Positions 24,801 to 43,830 of a stretch of DNA of 64,000 nt are shown one piece after another (the first letter of the stretch is position 1; every line of letters begins with the position of its first letter). Both the position numbers and the translations under genes were made by a program. A model generated the notes under the pieces. The model had not been told where the DNA came from and did not search any database. It saw only the letters and a program-made list of their open reading frames with translations. Source of the DNA: a virus; the IMG/VR virus record IMGVR_UViG_3300042924_003416, positions 21,774 to 85,773 of that record; one strand, written 5' to 3'.

Positions 24801-26338
24801 ATGCATCTTTCTCTAATAAAGAAGAAACAATAGCTAGTATTAATGGTGTTAGATATGATGTATTACGTGATGCTTCAGGAAATATAACTACTCTTAGTTA
24901 TATGATTAATGATCAAGCAATTAGTAAACTAAACAAAGAAATCAAAGATATAAATGATAAGATTACTAAGTTACGTAATAATCAAGCTGTAGAAGAAACA
25001 GATGGAACAGTAAGTCGGAATTATAAACAAGATTCAATTATAACACGTATTGCTGATTTACAAAATCAAGTAAGAACTCTTACTGGTAAAAAGACATTTC
25101 TTTCAGAAACTAATAAGAAGATGTATTTATATGGTGAGAATGCTAATGATTATATATTTGCATTAAACAGATTACCTAATAACTTTCAAAGATTAACTAA
25201 AGAAAATACAAAAGCTCAAGAAACTCAAGATCTTAAATCTATTAGTAACTTATCATTGAGTACAGCTATTGCAGATACTATTACTGAAATACTATCAGAA
25301 AACTATCCTGCAGAATTAGATATGTTATTTGATGGTACTTTTGATTACAAGTTTAAAGCTAAACCAAAAATCAACAAGTGGATAGATACATCTATTGAAA
25401 AATTATATGCACTAGGTTATACTGTTATAAACAGAGGTGATCTAGTTGATGATATACAAAATCAAATTAATGCTTTGTTAGAATTAAAAAATGATCTAAC
25501 ATTAATTAAATTAACAAGAGAACGTAAAATTAAAAATTATGCAGAAGTCAGAAAAATCTTTACAGAAGGACAACGAGTACAGGAAGGGACTAGTGTACCT
25601 AAGAATGAAAGGACTACCAGAGGAAAAACAGAAGGAGTTCCTAGACAAGCTACAAGAGAGGAACTTAAAGACCTTGTCAAACAAGCAAGAGAAGAAATCT
25701 TAACTGATGTTTTTGATGAACCAGTAGTATTTGAAGAAGTAGGTACTCTTAGTGAAGCTATGTTAAACGATATAGGTACTATAGAAAATATAGCTAAATT
25801 AAATACTATAGAATTAATCTATCAAAAAGCATTTTTAGAGGCACAAGAAAGAGGAGAGGATGCAACTGAACTTACTAAATCATATAAGAAAAGATTGCAA
25901 GAATTAAAAACAATTAATGCTGTTTCAAATGTAGAAATTGGAGAGTATCTTATCAGTAAAAATCCTATCTTTACAGATATTTCTGGAGAAATAGTACAAG
26001 TAGTAGATATTTTTGATATATATGAAGAAGAAGTTGCTTATCCTCCAGGAACTCAAAGTACTGTTACTTTAAAGAATATTAAAACCGGAGAAGTTAAAGA
26101 ATTTACAGACGCATTCTTTGCAGAAAATTTTGAAAAAACAACTATGGAAGCAACACAACCAGAACCAGAAGTAGAATTAACACCAGTAGATATAGAAGAT
26201 TCTAAAGAGTCAAAAGATACTATTGATGATTTAATTAAAAATGGACAAGATGCTATTGCTGAAGCTAAAGAAAAAGCAAAAACATCAGATAGTCAATCAA
26301 GATGGAATAAATTAGGAAACAACTCAAAATTTTGTTAA
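18866..26338 (+). CDS. Giant multidomain protein with embedded PD-(D/E)XK nuclease domain, 2490 aa
   Basis: This is the first of three adjacent giant proteins of the virion transcription block. Residues about 100-560 contain Gly-rich apolar stretches (around ILLEGAVEGALIGGMFSGG), which could be membrane-active. Residues about 600-1500 are Glu/Lys-rich and helical. A restriction-endonuclease-like core is visible at residues about 1690-1760: GEVDLLL with D1704, then AIVDIKTKS with D1718 and K1720, then YFRAQQSIYGYQ, as in RecB/Cas4-type nucleases. It could process host or phage DNA at entry. The C-terminal part is again helical and acidic and ends NNSKFC. The next gene starts after a single base. 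The nuclease call is from motif spacing. The rest I cannot assign. It may form part of the virion RNA polymerase complex. Confidence 0.7.
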   Translation: MAEETIGGAENLESQPSAFDQLLAKSDMLNPARIEQPMAPKVNWQDNFVNPTNYIKDNTAGVSPNYPPSEVKAAQRSGAMGGSFEAILDKGMAKINGMSDVGSYAEPYAYDTSPKGTFRDRYKGYGQETFNKIGFHPLIDNETWFNQNTTFGDDLKRWSTNSLWPMVSKGFMDPIKSYQSIMNGDGLFNADEQSARDYEYYNAIGASTKGGLGGFTVNLLNSASYSMGILLEGAVEGALIGGMFSGGNPTAGALEGGAAFARKLGSLPKSLIDATKATGKLLSSVKNYSNLAKAKELYKSAGSSFGNFINPLHNTFEAYHQLKNTDNITNLARSSATAGALWHDMMSMNLALSEGKLEGGFTRYQGYDKLYNEFMADPKNGGKPPSLEEQESMMRQASKGAWLNTTLNTGLIFLSNKIAFPSITNASFLKGVPKFAFGKVVGNVGKEYQILFDPGKKALEGVFAKQKISFGNAIKSLAKPATYGKVGLNYFKANVVEGGQEVSQDVLQEAVQDYYVQSYKNKDARNYRYGAGLLGSAISKQWNTQGLETFLSGFLMGSILQAPGKIKSYATMGYNDYFKKDASYQEYIKGREQVADDVVNELNTMYKSGDYFFDPRINNYANQALAANVVDDPDSHTTKEIKDTEFAAFQSAVLGSLQRGTFDMFLNHYKGYKQATPEDIEQAWNLKPGEGVKALERFDKAIENAEKIRDRWNTAKDKMKFMANLDDYEEGSDEYKIAEIYNKAYNQSLYNYVFLHNSYDDNVNRLGKLYQNLSSLSVIKNSTFSDFVGLVDSNRLSQEIEMLKTEVESLESFGTTEALTEAARKRGLSELYSKFQEKQEELVDLFVNKSFLDNIVNEIKQEDPDLTDNQATIKAINKVVDDYDQGKSNEFIEYKEAFSELLYGMAETPEKKLKLEEEIQNVGGIDVLFDELLDTHILKNENARLIQYVNTLANPREFYEHLMRNFKFMKDLYDNREETIKEIVNGEIEAIENNTLLNTLADQGIYIDLEEFAKWVENKRYLPEEFFDVKNKRVITKGSVLYQDILDIFFRAAQLAEKKPAGDPLTQKQLLDKKIEDLENDRGIALQKEFDKYVEAFKKRYGFTPEEYEAQEEARVAEEEISEEDRKEAESLKKFLENAAEKLQSDNYIEVQAAAEAVVERIFDKEGERAPEEFFQEQVEIYENDPEKNAVIRELIKKFDSEDIADNVDAALKSQIYGEAVATALNLINETLSKTPAAPTIDVENTKEYLAYQEAIQAINDKFDALISEVKETFRQKGVDENTPDEYTTKTDFEDFDLPYQEEITNLFDQYLVDILGESIDIKTKDPLEYERLRTNWLEQQTPLIAKFNQQAKEIALEKARKLAEPPQLKFIPDLKINAQTTTYTIASLINRFKKFLENGEYTDPKSKKLIQLTPEDIQNINDDIESLNGYLNARVAVAAPRNIAEQTIDIIQEYVINKQSELVDLLDEDGNVIGRTFKDRGPGDPVPDRTTQVAEEIENSLKDKDSFEYSPIKPQVDEEGNVSLSPVERLYNQFFKDPEIVPEDRIRLFMDAFKREAFRGWKEFRYPEKLEAVENSLKTVGTYDDLRKTISKYAFKESADAGDYVDGLIRIFLTPNAATASNFSEFTHDSTVQIKGRDIKVSDIMSRKAFDKLFSPVTPTSPGGIITKFRLGIVDGTYMILSENVKLFDKSLRNGKGVTGEVDLLLVREDGSVAIVDIKTKSLKERKGKLVSGWKDFGNPDAKYESSTYFRAQQSIYGYQFYNNTAITPDLKLMPFDMLLSKEKIGYIEDIDLAEILEDGKDTIDLEYLPEIENFGIQKITPEIKAPIKREEVEAKVEEGLPESDPTMNTLKDNLNKAVIYNGRSGKLVRMPDGGFGVEVITNDDITTLQLTLDTLQANLDIEKQYGSEESIAELERDIKRISDAIESNKGITEIFPLQENLNKVTNGDVSFDKVGLQLVIPIDKVGQLSTVKGQVINASFSNKEETIASINGVRYDVLRDASGNITTLSYMINDQAISKLNKEIKDINDKITKLRNNQAVEETDGTVSRNYKQDSIITRIADLQNQVRTLTGKKTFLSETNKKMYLYGENANDYIFALNRLPNNFQRLTKENTKAQETQDLKSISNLSLSTAIADTITEILSENYPAELDMLFDGTFDYKFKAKPKINKWIDTSIEKLYALGYTVINRGDLVDDIQNQINALLELKNDLTLIKLTRERKIKNYAEVRKIFTEGQRVQEGTSVPKNERTTRGKTEGVPRQATREELKDLVKQAREEILTDVFDEPVVFEEVGTLSEAMLNDIGTIENIAKLNTIELIYQKAFLEAQERGEDATELTKSYKKRLQELKTINAVSNVEIGEYLISKNPIFTDISGEIVQVVDIFDIYEEEVAYPPGTQSTVTLKNIKTGEVKEFTDAFFAENFEKTTMEATQPEPEVELTPVDIEDSKESKDTIDDLIKNGQDAIAEAKEKAKTSDSQSRWNKLGNNSKFC

Positions 26339-26339
26339 A

Positions 26340-29300
26340 ATGGCATGTAAACTAGATAAAGATCAAGTATTAGATCTTTATGAAGCACTTTATGGAGAAG
26401 TAGCAGATAGATTAAAAGACTCATCGTTACCTCCTGTTGATTTAAATCAATTAGTACAATCAGCATATGCTGTTGTAAAACTTAATTCTGAAGATCAAGT
26501 AAAGGCTATGTTATATGCACAGGCTGTTCCTGATGTATTTCATTTAGTAACACAAGACACAGAAGTAAATGATTATTTAGTTGATAATAATTTTGACTTT
26601 ACTGGTCTTGCAAAAATGAGAAAACAGTTTGCTGATCTTGCTGAAGTTGGTAAAACTGTTGCAACTAAAAAAAAGAGCAAGGACGAAATTGATTCTGAAA
26701 TAAAAGATACAAATAAAACTAAAAAAGATTTTGTACCTAAGATTGATATTGATAACGAAACACTTTGGTCATATAATGAATACAATGGTGCTAAAGTTAC
26801 TAGTGCATGGACTACATCTATTCAAATTGCCTACTCTGAAAATCCTGAAGAAGTATCTGAAGAAGACAGGAATAAAATTGATCCAGAAAAAATACTTTTT
26901 AGTGATGTAATAAAAGCTATATCTCAAATATCTAAAGATAGAGTTGGTACTGAAGATATACAATATCAAGGTAAAACAATTGCACTTACTGCTCAGTTAA
27001 CTAGAAGTGTTCCAAAAGAACTTCTTGTACAAAATGATAGAGATCATTTAGAAAAATATCCAAATACTAATGGTGTAATTGCAATTCTTACTGATGAGAA
27101 AGGTAACAATTTATACTTTAAACCAGATGGTTCTTTGACTGATAACCCATCTGAGGGTAGGATAGTGTATCAATATTTACGTAGAGTAAATCTTGTAGAT
27201 GGTAAATTACTGCTTTCTAATAGAAGTAACAGATTATATAATTTAGTTGATCCAGTTAAAATAGCTGAAAGACAAAGAGATCAAATAGTTGAAGCTAAAG
27301 GAGAAGTTACTGAAACACAGTTTAAACAACTTGTAAAAGATATTGCTGCCCGTCAAGAAAAAGAACTAAATGATTTATATCAACTTAGAACATTACTAGA
27401 ATCATCGGAACAAAATCTACAATTAACTCTTCCTATTACAGGAGGAACATTTGGTATTCCAACAACATCAGTTAAAACTGTAACTTTAGAAGAGGCTGGA
27501 GTAACTGAAACTGATTTAAAAAGTTATACTCCAATTACTACTGGTGAAAAAAAGGGTCTACAATACATTATTGTAAACAAACAAAAAGCCGGTGGTCTTA
27601 CAGTTAGTCAACAGTTATTTTTACAACGATCAGATATAGATCCTGAATTAGCAGATAAAATTGCTACTATCTTAACTACCACAGTTGAGTTAAAAGGTAG
27701 ACAACTTTCTCCAGATGAAAGAAAATCATACTTTGAAATCTTTATTAATAATGCTCGTGCAAAAAAATCTAATACAAACCGTGATAGAATTCAAGCTAAA
27801 GTATTGACAATTAATAATCAAAAGACATTAGTTGTAGAAATAAATGGTAAAAAAATTGATGATGCTATTCTTTATACTGAAGAAGGTAAACAAATGATTT
27901 TAAATCATTTACTTGCAGCTAGACCTAAGAAAGTTAGTAAAGGTAAAGAAGAAGGTTCTAATGGATATTGGCCAGCAAATGTTCAATACAATAATAAATA
28001 TAGAAACACTACATTCACTGATTATACAATTGAGGATGGTAAGATTATTAGTACAAGTAGAAAATACTTTGATGTAATTAAACCTTATGTAAAGATTACA
28101 TATACAGATGAGGTATTAGCACAAGAAAAAGGTATTAATGCATATCTTAATTATGTTATCCCAGAAGGAACAATTGAGTATGAAGGATATATACCTGTAG
28201 GAAGACCTAAACCAAAAGCTGAACCTGAAAAGAAAACTAAAAAGGATAAAGAAGAAACTAAAAAAGCTCCTAAAAAACAAGCAAGAACTAAACCTGTAAC
28301 TACTGGTGCATCAAAAGAAGTGTCTGCATATGAGATTTCTATGAAGAAACAAATTAAAGATGCAGGTGGAAAAGTTGAAGGTTATAAAACTAGAATGAAG
28401 GTTGCTGATTTAGCTGAAGCAGTTGGGTTAACTGAAAAACAAATAACTGAGTTTAGGTCTATTGCATTAGAAGCTACTGCTGATACTAAGACTACAGTAA
28501 AACCAGAACCATTAACAGCACCAGAAGTTAAAGAAGTTAATATACAAAGTAATCCTTCTACTAGAATAACATTAGTAGATGATATTATTAATGGTTCTTC
28601 TAACTCGGCTTTTTATAAAAGAGATAAACTTAACAGAGATAAACTCCGTAATAAGTTTCTTGATAAAGTATTTACTTCAAAATCAGATAGAGCTGCAGCA
28701 GAAAAATGGTGGAATAATTCTCCATTAAGTAAGTTCATTTCTCTTGAAAGAATTACTGAAGTAGTGAACTCTGATGCATTTGCAACATGGTCAGGTTATG
28801 GTATTACATTATATGAAGCTGATGGTGGGACATCTGTAGATTTATACCATGAAGCATGGCATGGATTCTCTCAACTATTACTTACTAAAGATGAGAAAGT
28901 AAAACTTTATGAAGAAATACAAAGTCTTCCTAAATATAAAGGAAAAAGTTTCTTTGATATAGAAGAAGATTTAGCTGAAGAGTTTAGAGGGTATGCAAAA
29001 TCTAAAGGTAAAAAAGCAACTCGTGGTTTCTTAGGTAAAATCTTTGATAAGATTTATCAGTTTATACAAAAGCTTTTTGGAAAAACTACTAAGAAAGAAG
29101 TAGCAACAAAACTTCAAGATATTGAATCTGTCAAAGAATTATTTGACAAACTATACAGAGCCTCTGAAAATCCAGAGATTCTATCTAATCTAAAACCTTC
29201 TATGGATAATGTAATGTTTGGGAAACTAAATAGAAGCAAAGTCATCAATGATAATTTTACATTAGAAGAGTCTAAAGAAATTGCAGATGCTATAGATAGT

Positions 29301-32300
29301 ATGATGGCTGTTATTTTCCAAAACTATAACAGAGACTTTAATACTACATCTGCAGCATTAAAACTTTTAAAAGATCCGGAAAACAAAAAAGATCTTTACA
29401 AAGATATTTATGACAGATTTGAAAGACTAAGAATAAAATATGCTGAAGAAGCTGAAAAGAATATTGATCTTATTATTGATCCACAATTTAGCAAAGAGTT
29501 TGAATTATTAATTAAGATAACAGACAATTTTGGAAATCTTACTGATTCACTTAGTGGTAAAGAAAAGAATAATGTTATTGCATATCATTTAGAAAAATCT
29601 AGATACAAAGTACTTGCTGATGAATATGATGAGATCGAAGATCCAAGTAATATTGAGAAGAGTTATTTGTTTAGATTAAATGAAGGAGGTAATACAGTTT
29701 CATCTAAAGAACTTGCTAGTCAAGAAACTATGATGTTATTGGCAAGTATCTTTGATGTAACTAGAGAAAATGGAGAGATCATTTATAATCGAGATGGTTT
29801 GTTTGGTCTTCCTAAATTACAAGATATAACTATTACGTGGAATAGACTTGCTAAAATTTTAGAGGGTTCATTTGATGAAATAGATATGTATGTAAGAATT
29901 TTTGAAAATTCTGAAAACTATCCTGAGCTACAACAACTTCAGACTTTATTACCTAATCCTTTCTTTACAATTGAAAGTGCTATGGGTATGTATAATCCTT
30001 TAGAGTTTGAAGCAGAAACAAATTTCTGGCAAGACTTTAAAAAACCAAGGGTGCCGTTTATTCAATTAAACTTAAATAAGGAAGAAATAAAATCTAAAGA
30101 TGTACTTGTAAGAGCATTTGAAGCACGGGTTGCAAAAGCAAACTTTGATGTGTATCAAGTAATCCAGGACTGGAAAAATAACTTTACTACTGCAGATTCT
30201 ACAGTTAATCCATATGTATCTAAACACTCAAAACTAGGTTACAACATTTTAAACACTGGTAAGATTGTAAAAGACTTTGGAGTAAATGGTGTATTTAATT
30301 ATAAAAAAGCAGATGAATTTTTAAGAGCAATTGGTATAGTACTAGACCCATCTAGTGCAGCTATAAGATCAATTATAAACAGTACGTCAGAACCATTTGG
30401 AACTACATTTGGTGTAGACAGAATGTATGAAGTAATCAAAAAAGTAAATAAGAGTACATCTCCTGATGCATTTCAATTTAAAAGAGATCCACTTACATAT
30501 TTTATCAACGGTCTTCCAACTTCATTAAGAGATAATGAGGAAGAAAGTGAAGAAGTAAGAGGTAGAATCAGAGCTCTTGCAGAGATACAAAATGCATTCT
30601 CTGATAGTTATTCTAACTTTAGTGTTCAGACTCCAGAAGGAAATAGAGTTTGGGAACATATGGTAGACAATACTATTACAAGAATTGTAACTGCAATTAA
30701 TCATGCAGAGTCTTGGGAAGAACTAACTACTGATGAAGGGGATCCTGCACGTAGATTCCAACATATGAGATGGCTAAATGAAAAGAATAATACATTTAGT
30801 CCTTTTTCAAAACTACTTAACTCTATCTTTGATTTAGATCCTATGTCAGATACATATGGTCAAAAAATTACTGATACTAAAATACTACTACAACATGTGG
30901 CTGGTACTCAAATGGTGAGTAAAAGAAATGAAGGTGGAACTTCTACAGCTGCTATGGATGCAACAAGTAAGTTTTTGCAAGAGTTTCATACAATGTTGTT
31001 AAGTGGTGTTGAAGAGTTTATGAGACATGCTTCTAAGAATACATCTATGGGTATGACTCTTGACGGTGAAGTTAAAACATACAATGGTAAAAAAGCTTCT
31101 AAATTATATATAGATGTTGAATCTTTCTTAGAGTATGCTGATGGAGAAATAAAAGGGTATGATATTGTTGAAGGATATATTGCTGCAGAAGCAAACAGAA
31201 TAGTTAGATTCCAACAAGGAATTGATAAGTTTAAAAACTATGCCGGCTACAATAGAAAAGTAAAAAGAAAAGACAATAAAAAAACTCCTGTAATGGCTGG
31301 TCAAGCATTTACAGCATTTGATGATATATTGTCTCAGGATCTACAAGCAGATCTTTATTCTATATTAGATGCAGCTTCAGAAAATCCATTAACTGATTTT
31401 GATCTTATGAAAGAATTGGATAACAATCCTGAAATAAGAAACAGAATTAGAAAAGATGTAGCTCAATATTTTAATCTTGAGACTAATAAAAACTTAGCTA
31501 GATTACAAAAAGCTAAGTATGTAGATAATGGATTAATGGAAAGAATCCGTGTTACAAATGAAGATCTTACAGATAAAGATATAGAACGTGCACTAATGAA
31601 AGCATATACATATAACTCTTTCATCCATAAGATGGAAACAGTAATACTTGCATATGGTGACTTAGCACAATATAATCATGCTAAAGAAGAATTCCATAAA
31701 AGAAATGCTGGTTTAGGTTCTGGAGGTAGAGGATTCCGTGCAGATAAAAGAGCTCAGATATATTTAAGTTCTTTGAAAAACTATTATGCTGATAGACAAG
31801 GTTATGAAACTAGAAACTATGATGGTACTCTTGTAACTGCTATCATGAAAGAAATGACATTTAATTCTGTAATGTATAATGAATACAGAGATGCCATTGA
31901 AGAAGCAACCTATGAAAGAACTAAAGATAGAAAGAAAGCAAAACAAATTGCAGATACAGCAGCATCAGAATACTTTGGATCTAACAAACCTCAGATGAAG
32001 ATTGCTGATGGTCAGGGTTTTATTACTATGGAATACTACAGGATCCTTAAGAAAGCTGAAGGTAACTGGAGTGATCAACAAGAGTTACTTTATAGAAAAA
32101 TTTCTATGGGAGAAAATATAACTGCAGAAAATGTAGTAGAATTTTTTCCACCTTATAAATTACAGTACTTTGGTAATATTCAATCAGAGGGTCTTCCTGT
32201 AAATTCATTCCATAAGTTTTCACTTGCTCCGTTAATTCCTGGAGTATGGAAATCTGGTACACCAATTTATGATTTACATGAAAAAATGATGAAAGATCAA

Positions 32301-35300
32301 GTAGATTATGTTTTATTTGAGTCAGGATCAAAAGTAAGTCATATTGGAAATGGAGATAACATGCTTAATGAAGACGGTAGTCTAAACAAAAAGGCAGAAT
32401 TTACTAAGAATATTGTCTATGCTGAATTCTTAAAAAACCAAACAGAAATTAACTCTACCTATAAACAAAAATCAATCTTCTCAACTCAGTTAAGAAAATT
32501 AATTTTAGAGGGTCTTTATGCTCAAGGTTCAATTAAGTCTACAAAATATAAAGACATAACAAATACTAGAGTTAAAAAATATATAGACCACGTAGAAGAG
32601 TATACTGAGCTATTAAAGTTGGAACTTCTAGAAGAAATGGGATATGAAGAAACATCCCCTGGAGAATATAAAGCAAAAGATAAATCAAGTACAGCTAAAC
32701 TAATAAACATTATCAGAACTAATCTTGAAAGAGAAGATCTTTTAAGTGATAATCTTATTGAGTTTATTGATGTGTATGATAATAGTGGAGACTTAGTTCA
32801 TGACTTATCATTTCATCCAGAGGCTGCTAAAATAGAGAAGTTATTATTATCTATGATTAATAAGAGAATTATTAAACAGAAAGTTGCCGGAGAACCACTT
32901 GTACAAGTATCTGTTGGACTAACTGCTAATCAATTTTCTAAACCTGACTTAAAAAAAGCAACTAAAGATGAGATTAAAAAATGGGCTTCTACAACATATA
33001 CACTTCCAACTTATCATAGAAAGTCAAATGGTTATACTGCAGCTGCAAAAGTTATGATTGCAATGCAAGGGACTTATTATAATCTTTTTAATCTAGAATA
33101 TGATAATGATGAAACTGTTGGTGTTTATGATGAGAGTGGTGTTTTAAATATGGATGAATCTTTAGCTAGATTAAATGAGAAGATTAAAGATGACAAATGG
33201 TTAGATGCTAATAATGAAGCTAACAGAAAAGCAATAACATTAGTTGGTGTTAGGATTCCTGTTCAGGGTCTAAACTCTATGGAATTTGCTGAGGTATTTG
33301 AATTCTTACCACCACAAGCCGGTAATATTATTGTTCCTCCTGCTGAGATAGTTGCTAAGTCTGGTGGTGACTTTGACATTGATAAACTTACAATCTTCAT
33401 GAATACACTTGATGAAGATGGGAAAGTTATTGAAAGACAGTACAAAGACAACAATGACATTAAAAAACTTAGAGGTACTGATGAATTTGAAAATGCTGTT
33501 AAAGCTCAGAAAGCAGGATTAGAAAATGAACTAATTCAAGATATTAAAAATATTCTTGAACTTCCTGAGAACTATGCTTCTTTGATCATGCCAAATGGTA
33601 CTTTCATTCTTAAAGAAATTGCAGAAAAATTATCTGCAGACGTAATGGAATATAATCCAAAAGAAAATAGAATGACAGATGATACTGGGGAGATCAGTCC
33701 TACAAGAGTATTAGAATCATTGTATAACGTATACAAACATGAATCTAATATTGTAGGTAAGAAAACTCTAGGTCTTGGTGCAATTGAAAATACATTTAAT
33801 GTTATCATGAATACCATTGGTGCTTATATGCCAGATACTTATGTAATAAAAGAAGTAACAAGAAAAAGTAACATGAGGCTGAGACATAATAAGATGGAAA
33901 GAAGAGGTAAAGAGGTCATCTCTATGTCAGACCTTTACGATGTTGATGGAACAAATAAAATATCAGATGTTATTTCTCAGATGATCAATGGATGGGTGGA
34001 CGTTGAAAAAGATGCATGGATCTTCTTTATCCAGGGTAACTATGAGGTTGCTCCAACATTATTATATCTTATTAAAGCTGGTGTACCTGTAAAAGAAGCA
34101 ATTTACTTTGTATCTAATCCATTGGTTAGAGAGTATGTAGATGAGCAACGTCTTGCAAAATCTACATTTGCCGATGTACTTAACAAAAAACCTGACGGTC
34201 CAGGACTTGCAAAATATAAAGCAGCATCTGAAGTAATTAAAAAATACTTTACTAAAGATGAACTTGCAGGTAATTCAAAAAATGATGATAGATATTTAAA
34301 AGGACAAGAACTTTTAGAAGATTATTTTAAAGATAAAAAACAAAAGCATTTTACTGAAGAAAACATGTTGAATCTTATTCAAACGGATGATAGAAAAAGT
34401 AATATGGCAAAAGCTATGTTCTTACATTATCTAGAACTAGAACAACAGATTGCTGGTTATACTGCACTTAAAATGGCATCTAATCCAGATACTGCTACTA
34501 AGTCTACTCTTTCTGATGTAGAACAGACAGAGGCTAATATTGAGAATTTATTCTTTGACCCAAGAGTTCCATTAGAGATTGTTGAAGCTATGATGGAGGA
34601 TTCTATTTTAAAGTCATTCTTTAATGGTCCCCTTGCACTAGCTGTAAGTAGACCTTTATTTAAATTAAGATATCACAAGGAAATTAGTGAATATTTAATT
34701 GCTAGAAAAGGTCAAATAAATAATGATCTTCAAACTACATTCCCTGGACAGAATATTGAGATGTTTAGTAATATCTTTAGAAATGACCTTGTAAGTTTTA
34801 TTCTGCAAAATGCTATTAGAAAATATAAAAAACAGGATGGATTTATGTCTTTAGATATGGAAACAACTATTCCTGTATCAATGGCTAAAGAATTAAAAAG
34901 AGGAGCCTTTGTAAAGAACGGTACTTTGTACATGGATATGAAGCAGATTAAAAAAGAATTTAAAGATAGTGCTTGGGTTAGAAACTCTGAAGTAGAGAAC
35001 AGTTATAAAGACAGAGAACTTTATGAATTAGATCCTTCTACTTTCATGAATCATTACGGTGCAAACTTTGATGAATATTTAAAATTTGTTGCTGAGAGAG
35101 AATATATTAGATATATAAAACCATTGAATACTGAGTTTACAAATTCATTTGAATTTCAAGAAGAACTTGATAGCACTAAAGAATTATTTCCAGATTTAAC
35201 TAATGAAAAAGCTGTAAGGTATACATATGAAAAACTGATTGCTATAAAAGCATTAGATAATTCATATAATTTCTTCCATCTTTTTAGAGATGATGATAAT

Positions 35301-36494
35301 TCATTTTCTGTAAGATTGTCTAAGTTGATACAAAACTATCCTGAACTAGCTAAAAATTATCCTATTATAGGTAAATTAAAACTTGATTCAACTAAAGAGA
35401 ATGATGCATTTAATATATTACTTGCTGATAAAGACTTTGATAATGATAAATCAAATCTTTATACACAAGATTTAAAAAAACTTTCTGATAGAACAGTTGT
35501 AAAATTAACTGACCCAGAAGAAAATGCTAGACTAAGTGACATGTTTAAATACTTAAACACTTTTGCTTTTTTACAAACCGGATTAAACAAGACTAAGTTA
35601 AGCTTTACTAATGTAGTGGACTATACAGACTTTTTATCTATTGTAGAAGGTGAGTCTAGTAAGTTTATTGAAGCTTTAAATAAAAAAGGATTTACACTTT
35701 TAGATAATTTCTATGATCAATTCATAAGAGAGAATAATAAAAAAATTAGTCCAAATAGAGATCGATTTAAAGATTATTTATCTACTATTGATTATGAAAA
35801 TGTAGAAAGAATACTTCCTGTAGAAAATCCTACTATAAAGAAAGATAGAAATGCTGAATCAGATGTAGAAGAAGTTATTTTAGATTCTACTAATCAAGAT
35901 ACAATAGCTGAAGTAAAAAGATTTAATCTTAAGAATACAGATGATCCTAATGTTTATACTTACAATGATAAGAATGCTACAAATGCAACTTACTATTTAA
36001 ATCTTGGTAAAAATAATCCTGATGTTGTCTTTGTACATAACATAAGTATTTATGAAATTAAACCGGAACAAATTGCTGCAGGTAGAAATCTTGGAGGTTC
36101 TGCTTACTTTATGACAGAAGTAGGAGATATGTCAGTTAATTTCCCAACTGATTTATTTGCAAGTGTTGTTAATGGTAGAAAGATAGACATTGCATCAGAT
36201 CAATATCAAACACTTAAAAATATTTGGGAGAAAAGAATTAATATACTTAAACAAATTCAAGAAAAAGGTGGTAAACTTGCATTTCCTGAGTATGGTTTTG
36301 GTGATCCTAACACCATGCCTCAAGAATTATTCGTATATTTAAGTAAGAGATTGTTTGAAGAGTTTGGATATATCAATCCTGGTTCTACAAAATATAACCA
36401 GGTAAGAGAAATGATAATAAAAACTCAAGGAATCTCTGATGAAGAAATAGAAATGCAATTAGAATTAGAAGAAGACCCTTTTAAATGTTCATAA
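26340..36494 (+). CDS. Giant virion RNA polymerase with zincin protease domain, 3384 aa
   Basis: This is the probable phage DNA-dependent RNA polymerase. At residues 2305-2349 it has RIPVQGLNS, NIIVPPAEIVAKSGG and DFDIDKL. The order and spacing resemble the R-x-P...S...N-A-DFDGD region of multisubunit polymerase beta-prime, and DFDID (D2344, D2346, D2348) fits the DxDxD metal-binding motif of crAss-like virion polymerases. An HEAWH zincin site (H837, E838, H841) with downstream acidic DLAEEF (E880/E881) marks a metallopeptidase domain that could cleave this or neighbouring proteins. A Lys/Pro-rich linker lies around residues 620-660. The protein ends DPFKCS and the next gene starts after one base. 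It presumably enters the cell with the DNA and transcribes early genes. At 3384 residues it is much longer than single-chain phage polymerases. Confidence 0.8.
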   Translation: MACKLDKDQVLDLYEALYGEVADRLKDSSLPPVDLNQLVQSAYAVVKLNSEDQVKAMLYAQAVPDVFHLVTQDTEVNDYLVDNNFDFTGLAKMRKQFADLAEVGKTVATKKKSKDEIDSEIKDTNKTKKDFVPKIDIDNETLWSYNEYNGAKVTSAWTTSIQIAYSENPEEVSEEDRNKIDPEKILFSDVIKAISQISKDRVGTEDIQYQGKTIALTAQLTRSVPKELLVQNDRDHLEKYPNTNGVIAILTDEKGNNLYFKPDGSLTDNPSEGRIVYQYLRRVNLVDGKLLLSNRSNRLYNLVDPVKIAERQRDQIVEAKGEVTETQFKQLVKDIAARQEKELNDLYQLRTLLESSEQNLQLTLPITGGTFGIPTTSVKTVTLEEAGVTETDLKSYTPITTGEKKGLQYIIVNKQKAGGLTVSQQLFLQRSDIDPELADKIATILTTTVELKGRQLSPDERKSYFEIFINNARAKKSNTNRDRIQAKVLTINNQKTLVVEINGKKIDDAILYTEEGKQMILNHLLAARPKKVSKGKEEGSNGYWPANVQYNNKYRNTTFTDYTIEDGKIISTSRKYFDVIKPYVKITYTDEVLAQEKGINAYLNYVIPEGTIEYEGYIPVGRPKPKAEPEKKTKKDKEETKKAPKKQARTKPVTTGASKEVSAYEISMKKQIKDAGGKVEGYKTRMKVADLAEAVGLTEKQITEFRSIALEATADTKTTVKPEPLTAPEVKEVNIQSNPSTRITLVDDIINGSSNSAFYKRDKLNRDKLRNKFLDKVFTSKSDRAAAEKWWNNSPLSKFISLERITEVVNSDAFATWSGYGITLYEADGGTSVDLYHEAWHGFSQLLLTKDEKVKLYEEIQSLPKYKGKSFFDIEEDLAEEFRGYAKSKGKKATRGFLGKIFDKIYQFIQKLFGKTTKKEVATKLQDIESVKELFDKLYRASENPEILSNLKPSMDNVMFGKLNRSKVINDNFTLEESKEIADAIDSMMAVIFQNYNRDFNTTSAALKLLKDPENKKDLYKDIYDRFERLRIKYAEEAEKNIDLIIDPQFSKEFELLIKITDNFGNLTDSLSGKEKNNVIAYHLEKSRYKVLADEYDEIEDPSNIEKSYLFRLNEGGNTVSSKELASQETMMLLASIFDVTRENGEIIYNRDGLFGLPKLQDITITWNRLAKILEGSFDEIDMYVRIFENSENYPELQQLQTLLPNPFFTIESAMGMYNPLEFEAETNFWQDFKKPRVPFIQLNLNKEEIKSKDVLVRAFEARVAKANFDVYQVIQDWKNNFTTADSTVNPYVSKHSKLGYNILNTGKIVKDFGVNGVFNYKKADEFLRAIGIVLDPSSAAIRSIINSTSEPFGTTFGVDRMYEVIKKVNKSTSPDAFQFKRDPLTYFINGLPTSLRDNEEESEEVRGRIRALAEIQNAFSDSYSNFSVQTPEGNRVWEHMVDNTITRIVTAINHAESWEELTTDEGDPARRFQHMRWLNEKNNTFSPFSKLLNSIFDLDPMSDTYGQKITDTKILLQHVAGTQMVSKRNEGGTSTAAMDATSKFLQEFHTMLLSGVEEFMRHASKNTSMGMTLDGEVKTYNGKKASKLYIDVESFLEYADGEIKGYDIVEGYIAAEANRIVRFQQGIDKFKNYAGYNRKVKRKDNKKTPVMAGQAFTAFDDILSQDLQADLYSILDAASENPLTDFDLMKELDNNPEIRNRIRKDVAQYFNLETNKNLARLQKAKYVDNGLMERIRVTNEDLTDKDIERALMKAYTYNSFIHKMETVILAYGDLAQYNHAKEEFHKRNAGLGSGGRGFRADKRAQIYLSSLKNYYADRQGYETRNYDGTLVTAIMKEMTFNSVMYNEYRDAIEEATYERTKDRKKAKQIADTAASEYFGSNKPQMKIADGQGFITMEYYRILKKAEGNWSDQQELLYRKISMGENITAENVVEFFPPYKLQYFGNIQSEGLPVNSFHKFSLAPLIPGVWKSGTPIYDLHEKMMKDQVDYVLFESGSKVSHIGNGDNMLNEDGSLNKKAEFTKNIVYAEFLKNQTEINSTYKQKSIFSTQLRKLILEGLYAQGSIKSTKYKDITNTRVKKYIDHVEEYTELLKLELLEEMGYEETSPGEYKAKDKSSTAKLINIIRTNLEREDLLSDNLIEFIDVYDNSGDLVHDLSFHPEAAKIEKLLLSMINKRIIKQKVAGEPLVQVSVGLTANQFSKPDLKKATKDEIKKWASTTYTLPTYHRKSNGYTAAAKVMIAMQGTYYNLFNLEYDNDETVGVYDESGVLNMDESLARLNEKIKDDKWLDANNEANRKAITLVGVRIPVQGLNSMEFAEVFEFLPPQAGNIIVPPAEIVAKSGGDFDIDKLTIFMNTLDEDGKVIERQYKDNNDIKKLRGTDEFENAVKAQKAGLENELIQDIKNILELPENYASLIMPNGTFILKEIAEKLSADVMEYNPKENRMTDDTGEISPTRVLESLYNVYKHESNIVGKKTLGLGAIENTFNVIMNTIGAYMPDTYVIKEVTRKSNMRLRHNKMERRGKEVISMSDLYDVDGTNKISDVISQMINGWVDVEKDAWIFFIQGNYEVAPTLLYLIKAGVPVKEAIYFVSNPLVREYVDEQRLAKSTFADVLNKKPDGPGLAKYKAASEVIKKYFTKDELAGNSKNDDRYLKGQELLEDYFKDKKQKHFTEENMLNLIQTDDRKSNMAKAMFLHYLELEQQIAGYTALKMASNPDTATKSTLSDVEQTEANIENLFFDPRVPLEIVEAMMEDSILKSFFNGPLALAVSRPLFKLRYHKEISEYLIARKGQINNDLQTTFPGQNIEMFSNIFRNDLVSFILQNAIRKYKKQDGFMSLDMETTIPVSMAKELKRGAFVKNGTLYMDMKQIKKEFKDSAWVRNSEVENSYKDRELYELDPSTFMNHYGANFDEYLKFVAEREYIRYIKPLNTEFTNSFEFQEELDSTKELFPDLTNEKAVRYTYEKLIAIKALDNSYNFFHLFRDDDNSFSVRLSKLIQNYPELAKNYPIIGKLKLDSTKENDAFNILLADKDFDNDKSNLYTQDLKKLSDRTVVKLTDPEENARLSDMFKYLNTFAFLQTGLNKTKLSFTNVVDYTDFLSIVEGESSKFIEALNKKGFTLLDNFYDQFIRENNKKISPNRDRFKDYLSTIDYENVERILPVENPTIKKDRNAESDVEEVILDSTNQDTIAEVKRFNLKNTDDPNVYTYNDKNATNATYYLNLGKNNPDVVFVHNISIYEIKPEQIAAGRNLGGSAYFMTEVGDMSVNFPTDLFASVVNGRKIDIASDQYQTLKNIWEKRINILKQIQEKGGKLAFPEYGFGDPNTMPQELFVYLSKRLFEEFGYINPGSTKYNQVREMIIKTQGISDEEIEMQLELEEDPFKCS

Positions 36495-36495
36495 T

Positions 36496-39400
36496 ATGGT
36501 TTGCCAAGTACAATTAAATTCAATAAAGTTTTTAGAAAAAAATGGAGCTACAGATGATATAAGAAGAATTATCAATGAAGATCTGTTTAATAAATTAAAT
36601 GATAGCCTTACTGATAAGGCAGAAAGAATATATGGTCTTGAAACTAATGGTAGTAAACTTTTTAGTGTAAATACTTCTGAACATATTGATCCATATAGAT
36701 CAACCTACTGGAGAGATGCTAAGGTTAGAGTACTAAGAGCTGAACCTAATGTAAAACTTTTTGAAAGACTTCAGGAACTTTTTAATGCACGTAATGACAA
36801 ACCGATGTTTATGAAAGCTCCAGAAGTGGATTATTCATTAAAGATTGTTAATGCTTTAAATAAAATTAATAGAAATAAATTTGAATCTTCAAAATTACAA
36901 GGTTGGTTAAATGATCTTCAGAAACAAGGAGTATCTGCTCAACAATTAGAACTTTTTAAAGAAGTAGCTAAACCAGGTATGACTAAAGATGAAATAGCTG
37001 CTGCTATTGCTGCTACTTATAGTTATACTATTGAGATTAATACTGCTAAAACACCAAAAGTAGGTGAAAAATTTTTAGATAGAGAATATGGTTATGAATT
37101 AGAAGTGACAGAAGAAACTTTACAAAATCAAATTAATGATGGTTTTGTAGATAATAATTTAAATACTCAATATTATTCTAATCTAACAGTTCCCGGAGGT
37201 ACTAACTATACAGAACAAGAAATAGCTACACCAGCAATTACACCAAGTATTAAAGGACATGCTCAGTTTGCTACAGATAAAGGTATAGGTTGGTTTAGAA
37301 GTGATGAGCAATCTATTAAAGAAACTGGTCCTATTAAATATTTTGTAGAAAATGCATTTGAAGATATACAATCTGAGTTATTTACTAATATAGAAGAAGC
37401 TAAAAAATTACAAAAAAAATGGTCACAAGATTATCCTGAATTAAAATTTGAAATAGTAAAATCTTCAACATATATTTCTATATTATCAAAAACCCGTAGA
37501 GTACTAGAAGTACAATCTGATTTGTTTCAGAAAGGTAGAGATAGAGAAAATTTAATAGAAGATAAAAACATGTCTTCTAACATAACAGATTCTAATAAAG
37601 AAGAATTTGAAGTTGCAAAAAGATTAGGAATTGAAGAAGAAGATGAAGAAGGAAATTTATCATATACTTATAAAGGTGTAAATTATTTTCAAGACATCTT
37701 TACAGATAACTATTTAAAATATGGATTACCTAGTTCTAATACAAAAGGAAACCAATTCCTACAACTACTAAACAAAGACAATAACTGGATTAATTTCTTT
37801 ACTAAGTCTATTATACAAGATAGTGCTAAGAAAGGATATGAAAAAGTATTGTTTCCTTCTGGTAATACAGCTAGTAAAGTAGAAGGACACACTACTTTAG
37901 AAGAGTTTAAAAAACAAAAAGAGGATAGAATTAGATTTTTAGATGGTGAAATTAATGACCCTGAAAATATAGAAAGAAGAATTGAAGAAGCTAAAAAAGA
38001 AAAAGAACAGGTTAAACAAGAACTTGAAAGAGTAGAGAGAGAAGGTTTTGGTGCTTTAAAACCTATCTATAACTTCTATGAAAATACTGTAACTAATATT
38101 CTTAAAAAACAAGGCTATAGTCCTAAAAAAATTACAGATGAGTATGGTAATACTTGGAATGAAATTACTATAGATCAAACAAGAGATACATCTCCTATAG
38201 CTTTTATGAGAGAAAATGTAAACCCTGCTCTTCAAGAGATCAACGGAGTTCTTTTTATGGATGTAAATCTAGATCAATTACAAGATCAAAGATCAAAAGA
38301 AATTGCTGAAGTACTTGCTCAAAGATTATCACTTAGTACTAATACACAGTTTAGAAATGTATCAGCTGAAGAGGCTGCAAATATTTTAAAGAACCGACCT
38401 GTTAAGTATAACGGAGAACCAGCATTTTACTATGCAGGAACAGTTTATGTAGTAGGAGAAAATATTAATGTGAGGACTGTACTACATGAATTCTCACATC
38501 CGGTCTTGAATGCATTAAGACAGACCAACAACATCCTATTTCAGAATCTCTATAATCAAGCACTTGCTACTGAAGAAGGTCAGGGTATCTATTACTATGT
38601 AGTAAACAACTATCCAGAACTAGAAGAAAACTCAGATCTATTCAAAGAGGAAGTACTTGCTTATGCAATGCAGTTAAAAGCACTCAACAGAATCAACAAT
38701 GACATTGAGACAGAAGGGTATCAAAACTTCATGAATAAACTTCTTGCTGCTATCAAACAACTACTTAGAAAACTATTTGGTAGTAAAATAGATGTAGCTA
38801 AGTTAGATGTAGATACTTCATTAGAGGAGATGGCAGATATGCTCTTGGATAAAGACTTTGAATTCAAGACAGATAGAATAAATGAAGAAGACCTTGCAAT
38901 GTTTTCCAGGGAAGTTGTTGAAAGGGCTCGTGAACTAAACAAGTTTTCTAATAAGGAGTCTATGCAGAAAGTTGTTAAAAGTACTTTTGAAACAACTAGA
39001 AGAGTACTCTCTGAAGCTGAAGGATTTAAAGGAGATAAAGCATCTAGAAAATTATTAAGAGAATCTTTATTTGAAAAAGGTACTAATAGATACATCCGTG
39101 AAGTCTTAAGAACATTAAGAGACAACTTAGATAGTAATATTGAAGACCAAGCTCAAAATCAACTCATACAAAATGCATTAGATACTGCTAGAGAAGAAAT
39201 GGATGTGGATTTAGAAAGAGCAACGGCACTGGTAAATTCATTGGATACAATCAATAGCATGACTAAGAACATGTTATTAGATATATCTAAACTTAGTGGA
39301 ACTAATATCAATAACAGAAGTACTATTGCACTATTGATGCTTTACAAATCTAATTCAAAAGCCTGGTTAAAAATGGTTCAAGAAATAGATGAGGCATTGA

Positions 39401-42400
39401 CATCTGAAGGTGGTTTTGTGGATACTAATAATCCTTTCTATAAAACTTTAAATGAAATAGTATTAAACATCACAAGAGTCAATACTAACATTGCAAATAT
39501 TCTTAAGAATAACAATGTTCAGTTTTATGTAGAGATTACGGGATACATGTCCAAGTATGTTCAAGATAGACTTAAGGGTAACTTAGGTATAGCACTGAAA
39601 CAAACTTTTCCAACAGAACAATTAGAACGTGAGGTAAATGACCTATATGACAAAGTAGTTCAACAAAAACTTACTGAAGATGATATAGATGCATTGGTAA
39701 AGAAAGGTGTTCCTGAAAATGTTCTAACAGGCTTTTTAAAAGAATATAAAGAACTTGTTGTTGATGAAGATAAAATCAAAGCTGCTCTTACTGGAGGAGC
39801 TCATGATGTTACTTGGTTTAATAGATGGTTGGAAAGTTATAGCTCTAGTAATGATGTTATAGTGGGACCATTAGCAATGTTTATTCAAAATGAAAAGACC
39901 CAGGTACAGAATCTTGTTTGGGAACAGTCTATGAAGTTTAGAAATAAACTTGAGAAACTTTTACCTAAAGTAGGATTTAGTAAACTTAATTCCGTTGCAA
40001 TGAGAGAGAGAATGGGATTTAAGGATAAAATATTCTACATGGATAAGAAGACAGGAAAACCTGTTGAAAAAGAAATTTGGAGTTATTTAGGTGCATTTAA
40101 AGATTATAGATATCACTATGATTTATTAGACTATAACTTAGAAGAAGCAAAGAAAACTGAAGATGTCAATAAAATTGCTCAAGCTCAGATGGAGTTTGAT
40201 GAATTCAAAAGAGACTACATGTGGCAGGAGTTTGTTCCTGAGTTCTATGAGAAAGATGATATCTTTAAACAGTCTGAGGTAGGTCAATTAGCATACTATG
40301 TAAGGAAACAAAAACTGCAGGCTTTTAATAACTTGGTTAACTCCATGGAAAATGAGCTTGAAAGATTTGAGAAGTACTCAACTATACAAGCTGCATTTAG
40401 AGAGTTCCAACAGTTATATTCTCTTACCTATGAAGATGGTACTCCTAAAATTGATGATCCGGCCAGAGGTGTTTATGATTTAAGTATTGCAAAAGTATTG
40501 CAAGAACATAGAGCAGCTACAAAAGGGTTCTACGAATGGAGACCAATTGAGGGTATGTTACAAAGTGCTTACAATGAATTTATAGATTTACTTGCAACAA
40601 AACAAATTTTTCCTGGATCCGGAGAATTTAAAAGAGAACTTGAAAAATGGAGAAGACAAAACCTTAGAATGGAGTATAACCAAGAATATTGGGACTCTAG
40701 AGTTGCTTTAACAACTGAACTAAGGGAACTTCAAGCAAAAATGAATGAAGTTGCAAATTCTAGATTTGATGTTGCTGCAGCATTTCAAACCATAAATGAC
40801 TTAATATATAGCTATCGGGATGAACAAGGTGAACCTGATAGTAATGCAATGGGTAAAACAAGACTTGAAAGAATTAAAGATGCAGAACAAGCTATTGCAG
40901 ACTTTAAGTTTCAGTATGATATATCCACAGGTCTTTCTAAAGAAGATTCTGAGGAGTTAAAAAATCTACAGTATAAAGCAAGAAAAGGTTTACTACAAGC
41001 TGGTTCTCCAGAATCTAAAAGATATTTCTATCTATTAGAACTGCAAGAAAAAGAAGGTATTAATCCTGCAGATGCAGCAAGAATTCAAGAGATATTTACT
41101 GAGTTATCACAATTAACTGAAAATCTTCCTACTGTATATTACATAGAGACATTAAACTATAATCTCTCTAAACAAAATATAAAAGAAGTTGATGAAGATG
41201 ACGTTGATAATTTTATAAATTCAGATGAGTTCCAAGACATGCTGGATGCTGATGAAGGATTTAAAGAATGGTTTAATCTTAATCATTATACAATAAATGT
41301 ATATGATGAAAAATCAAGAAGTTACATACCTAGATATAAAAGAACAAAAGCAAATACTGTTGCTATACCAAAAGATTCTTCTCAAATAAAATATACTAGA
41401 ATATTAAATAGAGAAGGTAATGAGGTTTTACTTATGGGTGCTCCTAATGCTAGACACTCTAGATATGAAGTAAAAGATCAGTATAGAACTATTCCTTTTG
41501 GAGCTGCTAAAGAAGATTATGTAGGTAAGTTTATTGATAATAAAAATCAATGGCTACCAAGGATGTATCAACCTGGACAAAAATATAGTGCTAAGGATAA
41601 CAGGTTCATGAATGAAAGATACTTTCAGATGCAAGCTAGTAATTCTGCAGAGTTTCAACTATTAGAAGCCATTAAAGAATATCATCTACAGAATCAGAAA
41701 GGTATGAGTAACTATAGTAAACTCTATCTTGATATGCCTAGATATGCTCTTAGAAAAGGGGACATTTATCAGTCATTACAAAAAGCAAATTATGGTTCTA
41801 GGTTTTCTGAAATAGGAAGTAATATTCAAGAGTGGACTAAGCAGTTAATTGGTAGATCAGTTACTGATTCTGAAAGAACTTCAGATAAGTATTCTATTTC
41901 TAATGAAAATAATTATGATCCAAATAATAACTTAGTTAATACAGATCTTGACGGTAATCAAATTACTTATGTTCCTGTATCAGGTATTTATAATCTTGAT
42001 ATAGAAAATCAAGATGCTGATATCTTCCAGGGATTATTTAAATATGCATTAAGTATTCAGACACAAGGAAAACTTTTAGAGAGTTTACCTCTTGTTAACT
42101 CTATACTAGATACATTAGAAGATCCTGACAATGCTCCAAAAGATTTAGAAAAATTTGATAAGAATATTTATAGTCTAAAAGGGGCCCTAACTTTTGCAAA
42201 GAAAAAATTCTCAACTAATAACCGTCTTGGTCAGGTTAAATCTCTTATTGAAAGAGAGTACTATGGTAAGATGGTTGAAGGTATAGAGGAAACTCATCCA
42301 CAATTTGGTAAATGGATAAATGGATTACAAGGTTTATCTGCTAGAGGTTCATTAGCTATCAATCTACCTTCTGACTTAAAAAACAAGTATGGTGCATATG

Positions 42401-43830
42401 TGCAGTTAATCATTGAAGGTAGTGGTGCTGAGTTTATAAATCTTAAAGATATTGCATTAGCAAGACCTTGGGCAGAAAAAGCTATGTTAGAATGGACTAC
42501 AAAAGGTATTTACCAAACAGGTCCAGGAGCTATATCAACTCAACTTGTTCAGATTTTTGATCCTAACTTTAAGTCTAAAGATGAGTTTGGTAGAGAGATA
42601 GAAAGATCTATGTTAAAAGATCTTGCCAATATGGAATGGTTATACATGCATAGAAAATTTGGTGAGATGCAAGTTGCAATGTCTTTATTTGGAGCTTTTA
42701 TGTATGGTCAAAAAGTAGAACAAGTTATGAGTGATGGTTCTAAAAAGACTTTAAGATATATTGAAGCTTGGGAAAAAGATGATGAAGGTATCATTAGATT
42801 AAAACCTGGTATACATCCTGGTTGGAGTAATCTTCCTGTATATCATGAATATACTAAAGGTGAAAGTCTTGAAAGTATTGCTAAGAAATACTACATTCCT
42901 TTAGAAGAACTAAAAGCTAAAAATAGAATTAAGTCTGAAGTACAACTTGAAGATGGTCAAGAACTTATTATATCTAAGTCAGAGTTATTTATGGGATTGA
43001 AAAATAGAATTCAAGGTACGTCTCGTAAATTATTTGGTACTTATGATGAAATGGGACAGCCTGAAGGTAATAAGTTACTTCTCTATAGAATGTTCTTCTT
43101 TATGAGAAAATGGTTTACTCCTATGTTGATGAATAGATTTGGATTTGATTCTAAAACTATTGGTTGGACACGAGGTGGTGAAAGATATGATTGGGCAACT
43201 ACATCTTATGGAAAAGGTTTTTATATTACAGCATTCCAAGCAATGTTGAAAACAATGAAATCTGGATTTAGAAACTATAACTATCTTACTGATCAAGAAA
43301 AAACTGCAGTAAGAAAACTTTCTGCTGAAGCATTCTTTGCAATTGGTCTTGCTCTAATTGGTCTAATGGTGTTTGGATTTGATCCAGATGATGATGACAA
43401 ATGGAAAAAACTAAGAGCTAAGTCTGGTGCAATGGGTCAAGATTCATTTAACACATATGGTTTTATGTCAAATCACATGTTACTTTTGATGATGGGTGTA
43501 CAAGCAGAAACTTCGGCTTTTGTACCACTACCTTCTATGAAAGGAGTAAATTTTGGTGCAGATGATTATGTAAAGATGCTAACACAAACAACAAGTGCAT
43601 GGTATAACACTGTAGTACTTTATATTGATATCTTTGGAGATGCATTAGATTTTGTAACATTCTCTGAAATGGATAGATATAAACGTGATACAGGTCCATA
43701 TTCATGGAAAGAAGAAGGAGATTTAAAATTATGGAGTAAATTAGGAAAAGCAATAGGGTTCACTGGTTCTACTGGAGATCCAGTAACATCATTTGAAAAT
43801 CAATTTAAAAGTCAATCTAAAGGAAATTAA
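36496..43830 (+). CDS. Giant polyvalent protein: zincin peptidase, LysM and membrane segment, 2444 aa
   Basis: Domains in order: a GGTNYTE...TDKGIGWFRSDEQ...FEDIQSE...AKKGYEKVLFPSG region (residues about 234-460) resembling the conserved domain of phage and conjugative-element polyvalent proteins whose hallmark is EiQSD, here IQSE; a coiled-coil Lys/Glu stretch (about 475-515); an HEFSH zincin site (H664, E665, H668) with downstream LFKEEVLAYA (E718/E719); a long helical region; a LysM-like repeat (about 2119-2160, YTKGESLESIAKKYYIPLEE); and an apolar segment AFFAIGLALIGLMVFGF (about 2280-2296), probably membrane-spanning. LysM and membrane segments suit a protein that crosses the cell envelope. 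It may belong to the virion transcription complex with the previous two genes. It ends three bases before a small basic gene. Confidence 0.7.
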   Translation: MVCQVQLNSIKFLEKNGATDDIRRIINEDLFNKLNDSLTDKAERIYGLETNGSKLFSVNTSEHIDPYRSTYWRDAKVRVLRAEPNVKLFERLQELFNARNDKPMFMKAPEVDYSLKIVNALNKINRNKFESSKLQGWLNDLQKQGVSAQQLELFKEVAKPGMTKDEIAAAIAATYSYTIEINTAKTPKVGEKFLDREYGYELEVTEETLQNQINDGFVDNNLNTQYYSNLTVPGGTNYTEQEIATPAITPSIKGHAQFATDKGIGWFRSDEQSIKETGPIKYFVENAFEDIQSELFTNIEEAKKLQKKWSQDYPELKFEIVKSSTYISILSKTRRVLEVQSDLFQKGRDRENLIEDKNMSSNITDSNKEEFEVAKRLGIEEEDEEGNLSYTYKGVNYFQDIFTDNYLKYGLPSSNTKGNQFLQLLNKDNNWINFFTKSIIQDSAKKGYEKVLFPSGNTASKVEGHTTLEEFKKQKEDRIRFLDGEINDPENIERRIEEAKKEKEQVKQELERVEREGFGALKPIYNFYENTVTNILKKQGYSPKKITDEYGNTWNEITIDQTRDTSPIAFMRENVNPALQEINGVLFMDVNLDQLQDQRSKEIAEVLAQRLSLSTNTQFRNVSAEEAANILKNRPVKYNGEPAFYYAGTVYVVGENINVRTVLHEFSHPVLNALRQTNNILFQNLYNQALATEEGQGIYYYVVNNYPELEENSDLFKEEVLAYAMQLKALNRINNDIETEGYQNFMNKLLAAIKQLLRKLFGSKIDVAKLDVDTSLEEMADMLLDKDFEFKTDRINEEDLAMFSREVVERARELNKFSNKESMQKVVKSTFETTRRVLSEAEGFKGDKASRKLLRESLFEKGTNRYIREVLRTLRDNLDSNIEDQAQNQLIQNALDTAREEMDVDLERATALVNSLDTINSMTKNMLLDISKLSGTNINNRSTIALLMLYKSNSKAWLKMVQEIDEALTSEGGFVDTNNPFYKTLNEIVLNITRVNTNIANILKNNNVQFYVEITGYMSKYVQDRLKGNLGIALKQTFPTEQLEREVNDLYDKVVQQKLTEDDIDALVKKGVPENVLTGFLKEYKELVVDEDKIKAALTGGAHDVTWFNRWLESYSSSNDVIVGPLAMFIQNEKTQVQNLVWEQSMKFRNKLEKLLPKVGFSKLNSVAMRERMGFKDKIFYMDKKTGKPVEKEIWSYLGAFKDYRYHYDLLDYNLEEAKKTEDVNKIAQAQMEFDEFKRDYMWQEFVPEFYEKDDIFKQSEVGQLAYYVRKQKLQAFNNLVNSMENELERFEKYSTIQAAFREFQQLYSLTYEDGTPKIDDPARGVYDLSIAKVLQEHRAATKGFYEWRPIEGMLQSAYNEFIDLLATKQIFPGSGEFKRELEKWRRQNLRMEYNQEYWDSRVALTTELRELQAKMNEVANSRFDVAAAFQTINDLIYSYRDEQGEPDSNAMGKTRLERIKDAEQAIADFKFQYDISTGLSKEDSEELKNLQYKARKGLLQAGSPESKRYFYLLELQEKEGINPADAARIQEIFTELSQLTENLPTVYYIETLNYNLSKQNIKEVDEDDVDNFINSDEFQDMLDADEGFKEWFNLNHYTINVYDEKSRSYIPRYKRTKANTVAIPKDSSQIKYTRILNREGNEVLLMGAPNARHSRYEVKDQYRTIPFGAAKEDYVGKFIDNKNQWLPRMYQPGQKYSAKDNRFMNERYFQMQASNSAEFQLLEAIKEYHLQNQKGMSNYSKLYLDMPRYALRKGDIYQSLQKANYGSRFSEIGSNIQEWTKQLIGRSVTDSERTSDKYSISNENNYDPNNNLVNTDLDGNQITYVPVSGIYNLDIENQDADIFQGLFKYALSIQTQGKLLESLPLVNSILDTLEDPDNAPKDLEKFDKNIYSLKGALTFAKKKFSTNNRLGQVKSLIEREYYGKMVEGIEETHPQFGKWINGLQGLSARGSLAINLPSDLKNKYGAYVQLIIEGSGAEFINLKDIALARPWAEKAMLEWTTKGIYQTGPGAISTQLVQIFDPNFKSKDEFGREIERSMLKDLANMEWLYMHRKFGEMQVAMSLFGAFMYGQKVEQVMSDGSKKTLRYIEAWEKDDEGIIRLKPGIHPGWSNLPVYHEYTKGESLESIAKKYYIPLEELKAKNRIKSEVQLEDGQELIISKSELFMGLKNRIQGTSRKLFGTYDEMGQPEGNKLLLYRMFFFMRKWFTPMLMNRFGFDSKTIGWTRGGERYDWATTSYGKGFYITAFQAMLKTMKSGFRNYNYLTDQEKTAVRKLSAEAFFAIGLALIGLMVFGFDPDDDDKWKKLRAKSGAMGQDSFNTYGFMSNHMLLLMMGVQAETSAFVPLPSMKGVNFGADDYVKMLTQTTSAWYNTVVLYIDIFGDALDFVTFSEMDRYKRDTGPYSWKEEGDLKLWSKLGKAIGFTGSTGDPVTSFENQFKSQSKGN

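Follow-up and report, generated by a model that had tools for sequence, protein, structure and literature searches.

The window analyzed here is a stretch of 64,000 nucleotides of viral DNA (positions 21,774 to 85,773 of the IMG/VR record IMGVR_UViG_3300042924_003416, a partial linear fragment of 85.8 kb). One of its open frames spans 3384 amino acids with no standard stop codon inside, carries the motif DFDID and lies among other giant genes. The features considered below are as follows, with coordinates of the window.

18866-26338, directly upstream of the polymerase: giant protein of 2490 aa, whose relatives adjoin the polymerase in other viral contigs
26340-36494, + strand: catalytic RNA polymerase subunit of crAss-like phage type, 3384 aa, orthologous to phi14:2 gp66 but extended at the N-terminus (open reading frame, profile, hhalign and structure match)
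28848-28862, + strand: zincin-like motif HEAWH, residues 837-841 of the polymerase frame, invariant in the relatives covering it
31992-32441, + strand: approximate N-terminal beta-like barrel, residues ~1885-2034, with inferred boundaries and putative catalytic Lys
33045-33419, + strand: approximate beta-prime-like barrel, residues 2236-2360, with boundaries deduced from the strands of the model
33252-33386, + strand: block RIPVQGLNS...PPAEIVAKSGGDFDIDK, residues 2305-2349, core of the beta-prime-like double-psi barrel (top conservation; gp66 alignment)
33369-33383, + strand: DFDID metal-binding triad D2344/D2346/D2348, invariant Asp residues aligned to D1361/D1363/D1365 of gp66, with a catalytic role presumed from the family
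33717-33818, + strand: candidate bridge helix, long, residues 2460-2493 (716-749 of the model), YN..K...G...LGLGA, putatively assigned from a model helix with invariant residues
33978-34046, + strand: second highly conserved helical block, QMINGWVD.....W.F..QGN.E, residues 2547-2569, downstream of the polymerase active site and aligned to gp66 AFLNAFVDNAKDPYI
36496-43830, + strand: protein of 2444 aa related by profile matches to phi14:2 gp65, the RNA polymerase-associated virion protein

The motif occupies residues 2344-2348 of the frame and belongs to the string R-I-P-V-Q-G...K-S-G-G-D-F-D-I-D-K, in which RIPVQGLNS begins at residue 2305 (33252) and the Lys following DFDID ends at 33386. The frame and the coordinates previously given for this block in a sequence-only reading of the DNA are correct. 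The equivalent motif in the beta-prime subunit of cellular RNA polymerase is DFDGD.

Scans of the giant proteins as single sequences against PHROGs, Pfam and, with phmmer, the PDB gave nothing useful, so that recognition of the polymerase needs a family profile; Pfam scans of the family members returned scattered weak matches to unrelated families only. A profile built from 24 sequences over residues 1745-2900 matches gp66, the virion RNA polymerase of Cellulophaga phage phi14:2 (PDB 6VR4), in two blocks with E = 8.6e-43, the next match lying at 0.065, while a wider profile compared by hhalign places residues 1119-2722 on gp66 226-1751 (E 2.4e-42, 1337 columns). The alignment sets DFDID exactly on the DFDID of gp66 at 1361-1365 and RIPVQGLNS on RIPNQGQSS, the gp66 counterpart of the whole block being YRIPNQG...TEIPTKTGSDFDIDK and its motif KTGSDFDIDK. 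The two proteins have in common a single chain, the DFDID motif in its RIP..Q..S context and, in the N-terminal barrel, conserved Lys/Gly blocks, but differ in length (2180 aa for gp66 vs 3384 aa in the window) and share only ~18-21% identity.

Other members of the Crassvirales present the same signature, namely GSDFDID in cr118_1, cr10_1 and ctcc615, DFDID in cr109_1 and DFDVD in cr7_1. We considered Ile at position four as a sign of an unusual active site and rejected the idea, since gp66 and other Crassvirales carry Ile too; given that gp66 itself reads KTGSDFDIDK, this residue represents the ordinary crAss form. The departure from DFDGD, an oddity implied in the sequence-only reading, is consequently no novelty, being present in the solved gp66 structure and elsewhere in the order. 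The giant RNA polymerase polyproteins of Suoliviridae (cr118_1 and cr10_1) resemble the window protein in having the motif GSDFDIDKL within a RIPTQG or RVPTQG context, but they reach ~4460 aa, and long branches lie between them and it in the polymerase tree. Of note, the polymerase frames of the reference phages cr7_1 and cr109_1, unlike that of the window, appear to hold many standard stop codons; crAss-like phages have been reported to reassign stop codons, with which this observation would agree.

The conservation of the block was evaluated in an alignment of the window protein with 23 relatives, diverse and extending down to ~32% identity. No other 50-residue stretch of the polymerase protein is as conserved in these 24 sequences as residues 2301-2350, and D2344, D2346, D2348, R2305, P2307, Q2309, K2340, G2342 and K2349 do not vary at all. 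Relatives were collected in two overlapping sets: scanning viral contigs yielded 27 of close to moderate similarity, and scanning with a profile yielded 79 loci. The DxDxD motif is kept in 104/104 related viral loci, a count that includes some re-fetched or near-identical contigs. Its form is DFDID in 93 of these loci, DFDVD in four, DFDFD in three, DYDID in two, and DFDYD and DYDVD in one each; position four is never Gly.

Contigs of the relatives carry a phi14:2-like TerL in 15 cases out of 16 and a phi14:2-like major capsid protein in all 16, which by way of these relatives indicates probable membership of the order Crassvirales for the virus of the window. In the window's own partial contig, searches directed at other genes turned up neither of the two. 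In the polymerase tree, the 24 environmental sequences (window included) split from six Crassvirales references by a branch with 100/100 support. The tree contains those six references only and, since some of their branches are very long, the exact position of the environmental clade is unsure. Its topology suggests an environmental group without a family name, well apart from the six reference polymerases, the rank of family not being established. The results confirm that a single-chain RNA polymerase of crAss type with DFDID, not DFDGD, spans a diverse clade of environmental viruses, and about 100 further sequences become available for studying how two-barrel polymerases diverged.

Structural comparison with the phi14:2 virion polymerase, which the sequence-only reading had proposed, was carried out with an AlphaFold model of residues 1745-2900 (1156 aa, mean pLDDT 73, the catalytic loop at model positions 597-603 having pLDDT < 50). 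In Foldseek the sole significant match of this model is 6VR4 (E 1.7e-25). VIA-align places 6VR4 at Z 23.5 over 834 residues, with model 19-1082 on gp66 870-1868, followed by QDE-1 and RDR2 (Z 8-9.1) and then by E. coli beta-prime (Z up to 5.7); in the 6c9y row (Z 5.6), beta-prime 345-489 is overlaid by model 435-671, the stretch with DFDID at 600-604. Strands are modelled at approximately 2236-2241, 2300-2305, 2313-2323, 2330-2332 and 2350-2353, in a region that matches both 6VR4 and E. coli beta-prime. The beta-prime-like interpretation of the block is hence supported by profile, register with gp66 and fold, and the double-psi barrel that had been expected around residues 2250-2400 has its counterpart in these strands. 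The predicted fold points to two double-psi barrels in one polypeptide, with low to moderate confidence for the barrel boundaries and the DFDID loop. The region of the N-terminal beta-like barrel contains invariant K1940, H1958-K1959 and G1996-S-K1998, aligned to YLKYSQAVLLP and DGVKVG of gp66.

A comparison of two-barrel single-chain polymerases is given in PMC10770324. The RNA silencing polymerases QDE-1 and RDR2 have the same single-chain architecture with two barrels, but they are eukaryotic, function in RNA silencing and are only ~10-13% identical to the window protein. E. coli beta-prime matches in its catalytic barrel (Z ~5.7) and has DFDxD after an RxP element, whereas cellular RNA polymerase is composed of separate subunits, has Gly at position four and gives no match at the sequence level.

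Taken together, DFDID almost certainly marks the site at which a giant two-barrel RNA polymerase of a crAss-like phage, DNA-dependent and made of one polypeptide, binds its catalytic metal. This enzyme most likely is packaged in the virion and transcribes early genes. A bare DxDxD would be weak evidence for such a site: shuffled copies of the 3384-aa protein average 1.2 strings of this kind, and two more, which overlap, occur at residues 3030-3036 of the real sequence; we discarded the latter as functional motifs, for relatives do not keep them. That DFDID is likewise a chance string in an unrelated giant protein is nevertheless a practically negligible possibility: the full pattern R.P...K.G.D[FYW]D.D was found in 0/2000 shuffles of the same protein, and the homology and fold shared with 6VR4, the exact register of the motif and its invariance refute it.

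Two other explanations accept the polymerase fold and question its function. The protein could be a relative that has lost transcription and now has a structural role or one in ejection, as might be imagined for a very long product encoded among virion-type genes, in a clade whose polymerase activity is a prediction. The retention of DxDxD in every locus is, however, what is expected of an active enzyme, and the three Asp, RxP, KxG and the trailing Lys are invariant even in the most distant of the 24 aligned sequences, so that we regard this explanation as very improbable. Equally improbable is a polymerase copying RNA templates in the manner of QDE-1, which is evoked by the second-best structural matches being the RNAi enzymes; the far closer relative gp66 is titled a DNA-dependent RNA polymerase, QDE-1 has also been solved with a DNA template, and the surrounding genes are of the type found in dsDNA phages.

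The RNA polymerase of crAss phage has been described as a virion component that is translocated into the host and is responsible for early transcription (PMC7886860), and virions of PhicrAss001 hold RNA polymerase-associated proteins that must partly unfold to pass through the tail (PMC10172136). By analogy with phi14:2, catalysis, packaging, injection and early-gene transcription most likely apply to the DNA-dependent polymerase of the window as well. It would travel inside the phage particle, be forced through the tail before the DNA or together with it and, once refolded in the host cell, transcribe the early phage genes. In the active enzyme, D2344, D2346 and D2348 would hold the catalytic Mg2+ between the beta-prime-like barrel and the N-terminal beta-like barrel, as homology to gp66 implies; the latter barrel would supply the conserved Lys residues, and the long helix behind the active site would correspond to the bridge helix.

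The DFDID motif itself is no discovery, for it constitutes a hallmark of a known enzyme family; what stands out is the diversity of the lineage and the HEAWH motif of the N-terminal part. The latter is unchanged in 20/20 relatives covering it and is followed by conserved Glu residues (EE..AE). A zincin-like motif of the form HEA(F/Y)H also occurs in the N-terminal part of the Suoliviridae polyproteins, in the same polypeptide as the polymerase, whereas in phi14:2 gp66 has neither HEAWH nor the extra N-terminal part and an HExxH is found in gp65 instead. No fold is established for the HEAWH region, given its model pLDDT of 53 and the absence of matches to PDB or Pfam families, and in the searchable literature we found no description of this motif in the polymerase frame. 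It might be imagined that the window belongs to an environmental clade of crAss-like phages, of family rank and so far undescribed, whose virion RNA polymerase carries a permanently fused, active metalloprotease of the zincin type; after injection, this would process the giant protein or attack a host target. We consider such a scenario unlikely.

The neighborhood of the polymerase gene has the organization of phi14:2. In that phage, tail and virion proteins are followed by gp67, gp66 (the polymerase), gp65 (polymerase-associated) and a convergent replication block; in the window, giant virion-type genes on the + strand precede the polymerase, which is followed by the gp65-like gene and then by a replication block on the - strand with genes for DNA polymerase, exonuclease, primase and a Sak4-like protein. 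The 2490-aa upstream protein showed no match to phi14:2 gp65-gp68 or gp71 and no convincing match in family libraries, and no relatives of the 1065-aa protein at 15666-18863 were present among the fetched loci, the flanks of which may often be too short. The 2444-aa protein matches gp65 with a probability of 97 and E 3.7e-11 in a degenerate alignment, and in a second comparison (E 1.3e-6) its ~95 N-terminal residues align clearly. This gp65-like protein has a HEFSH motif of its own at residue 664 and, near its C-terminus, a LysM domain (residues 2121-2159, E 1.2e-5).
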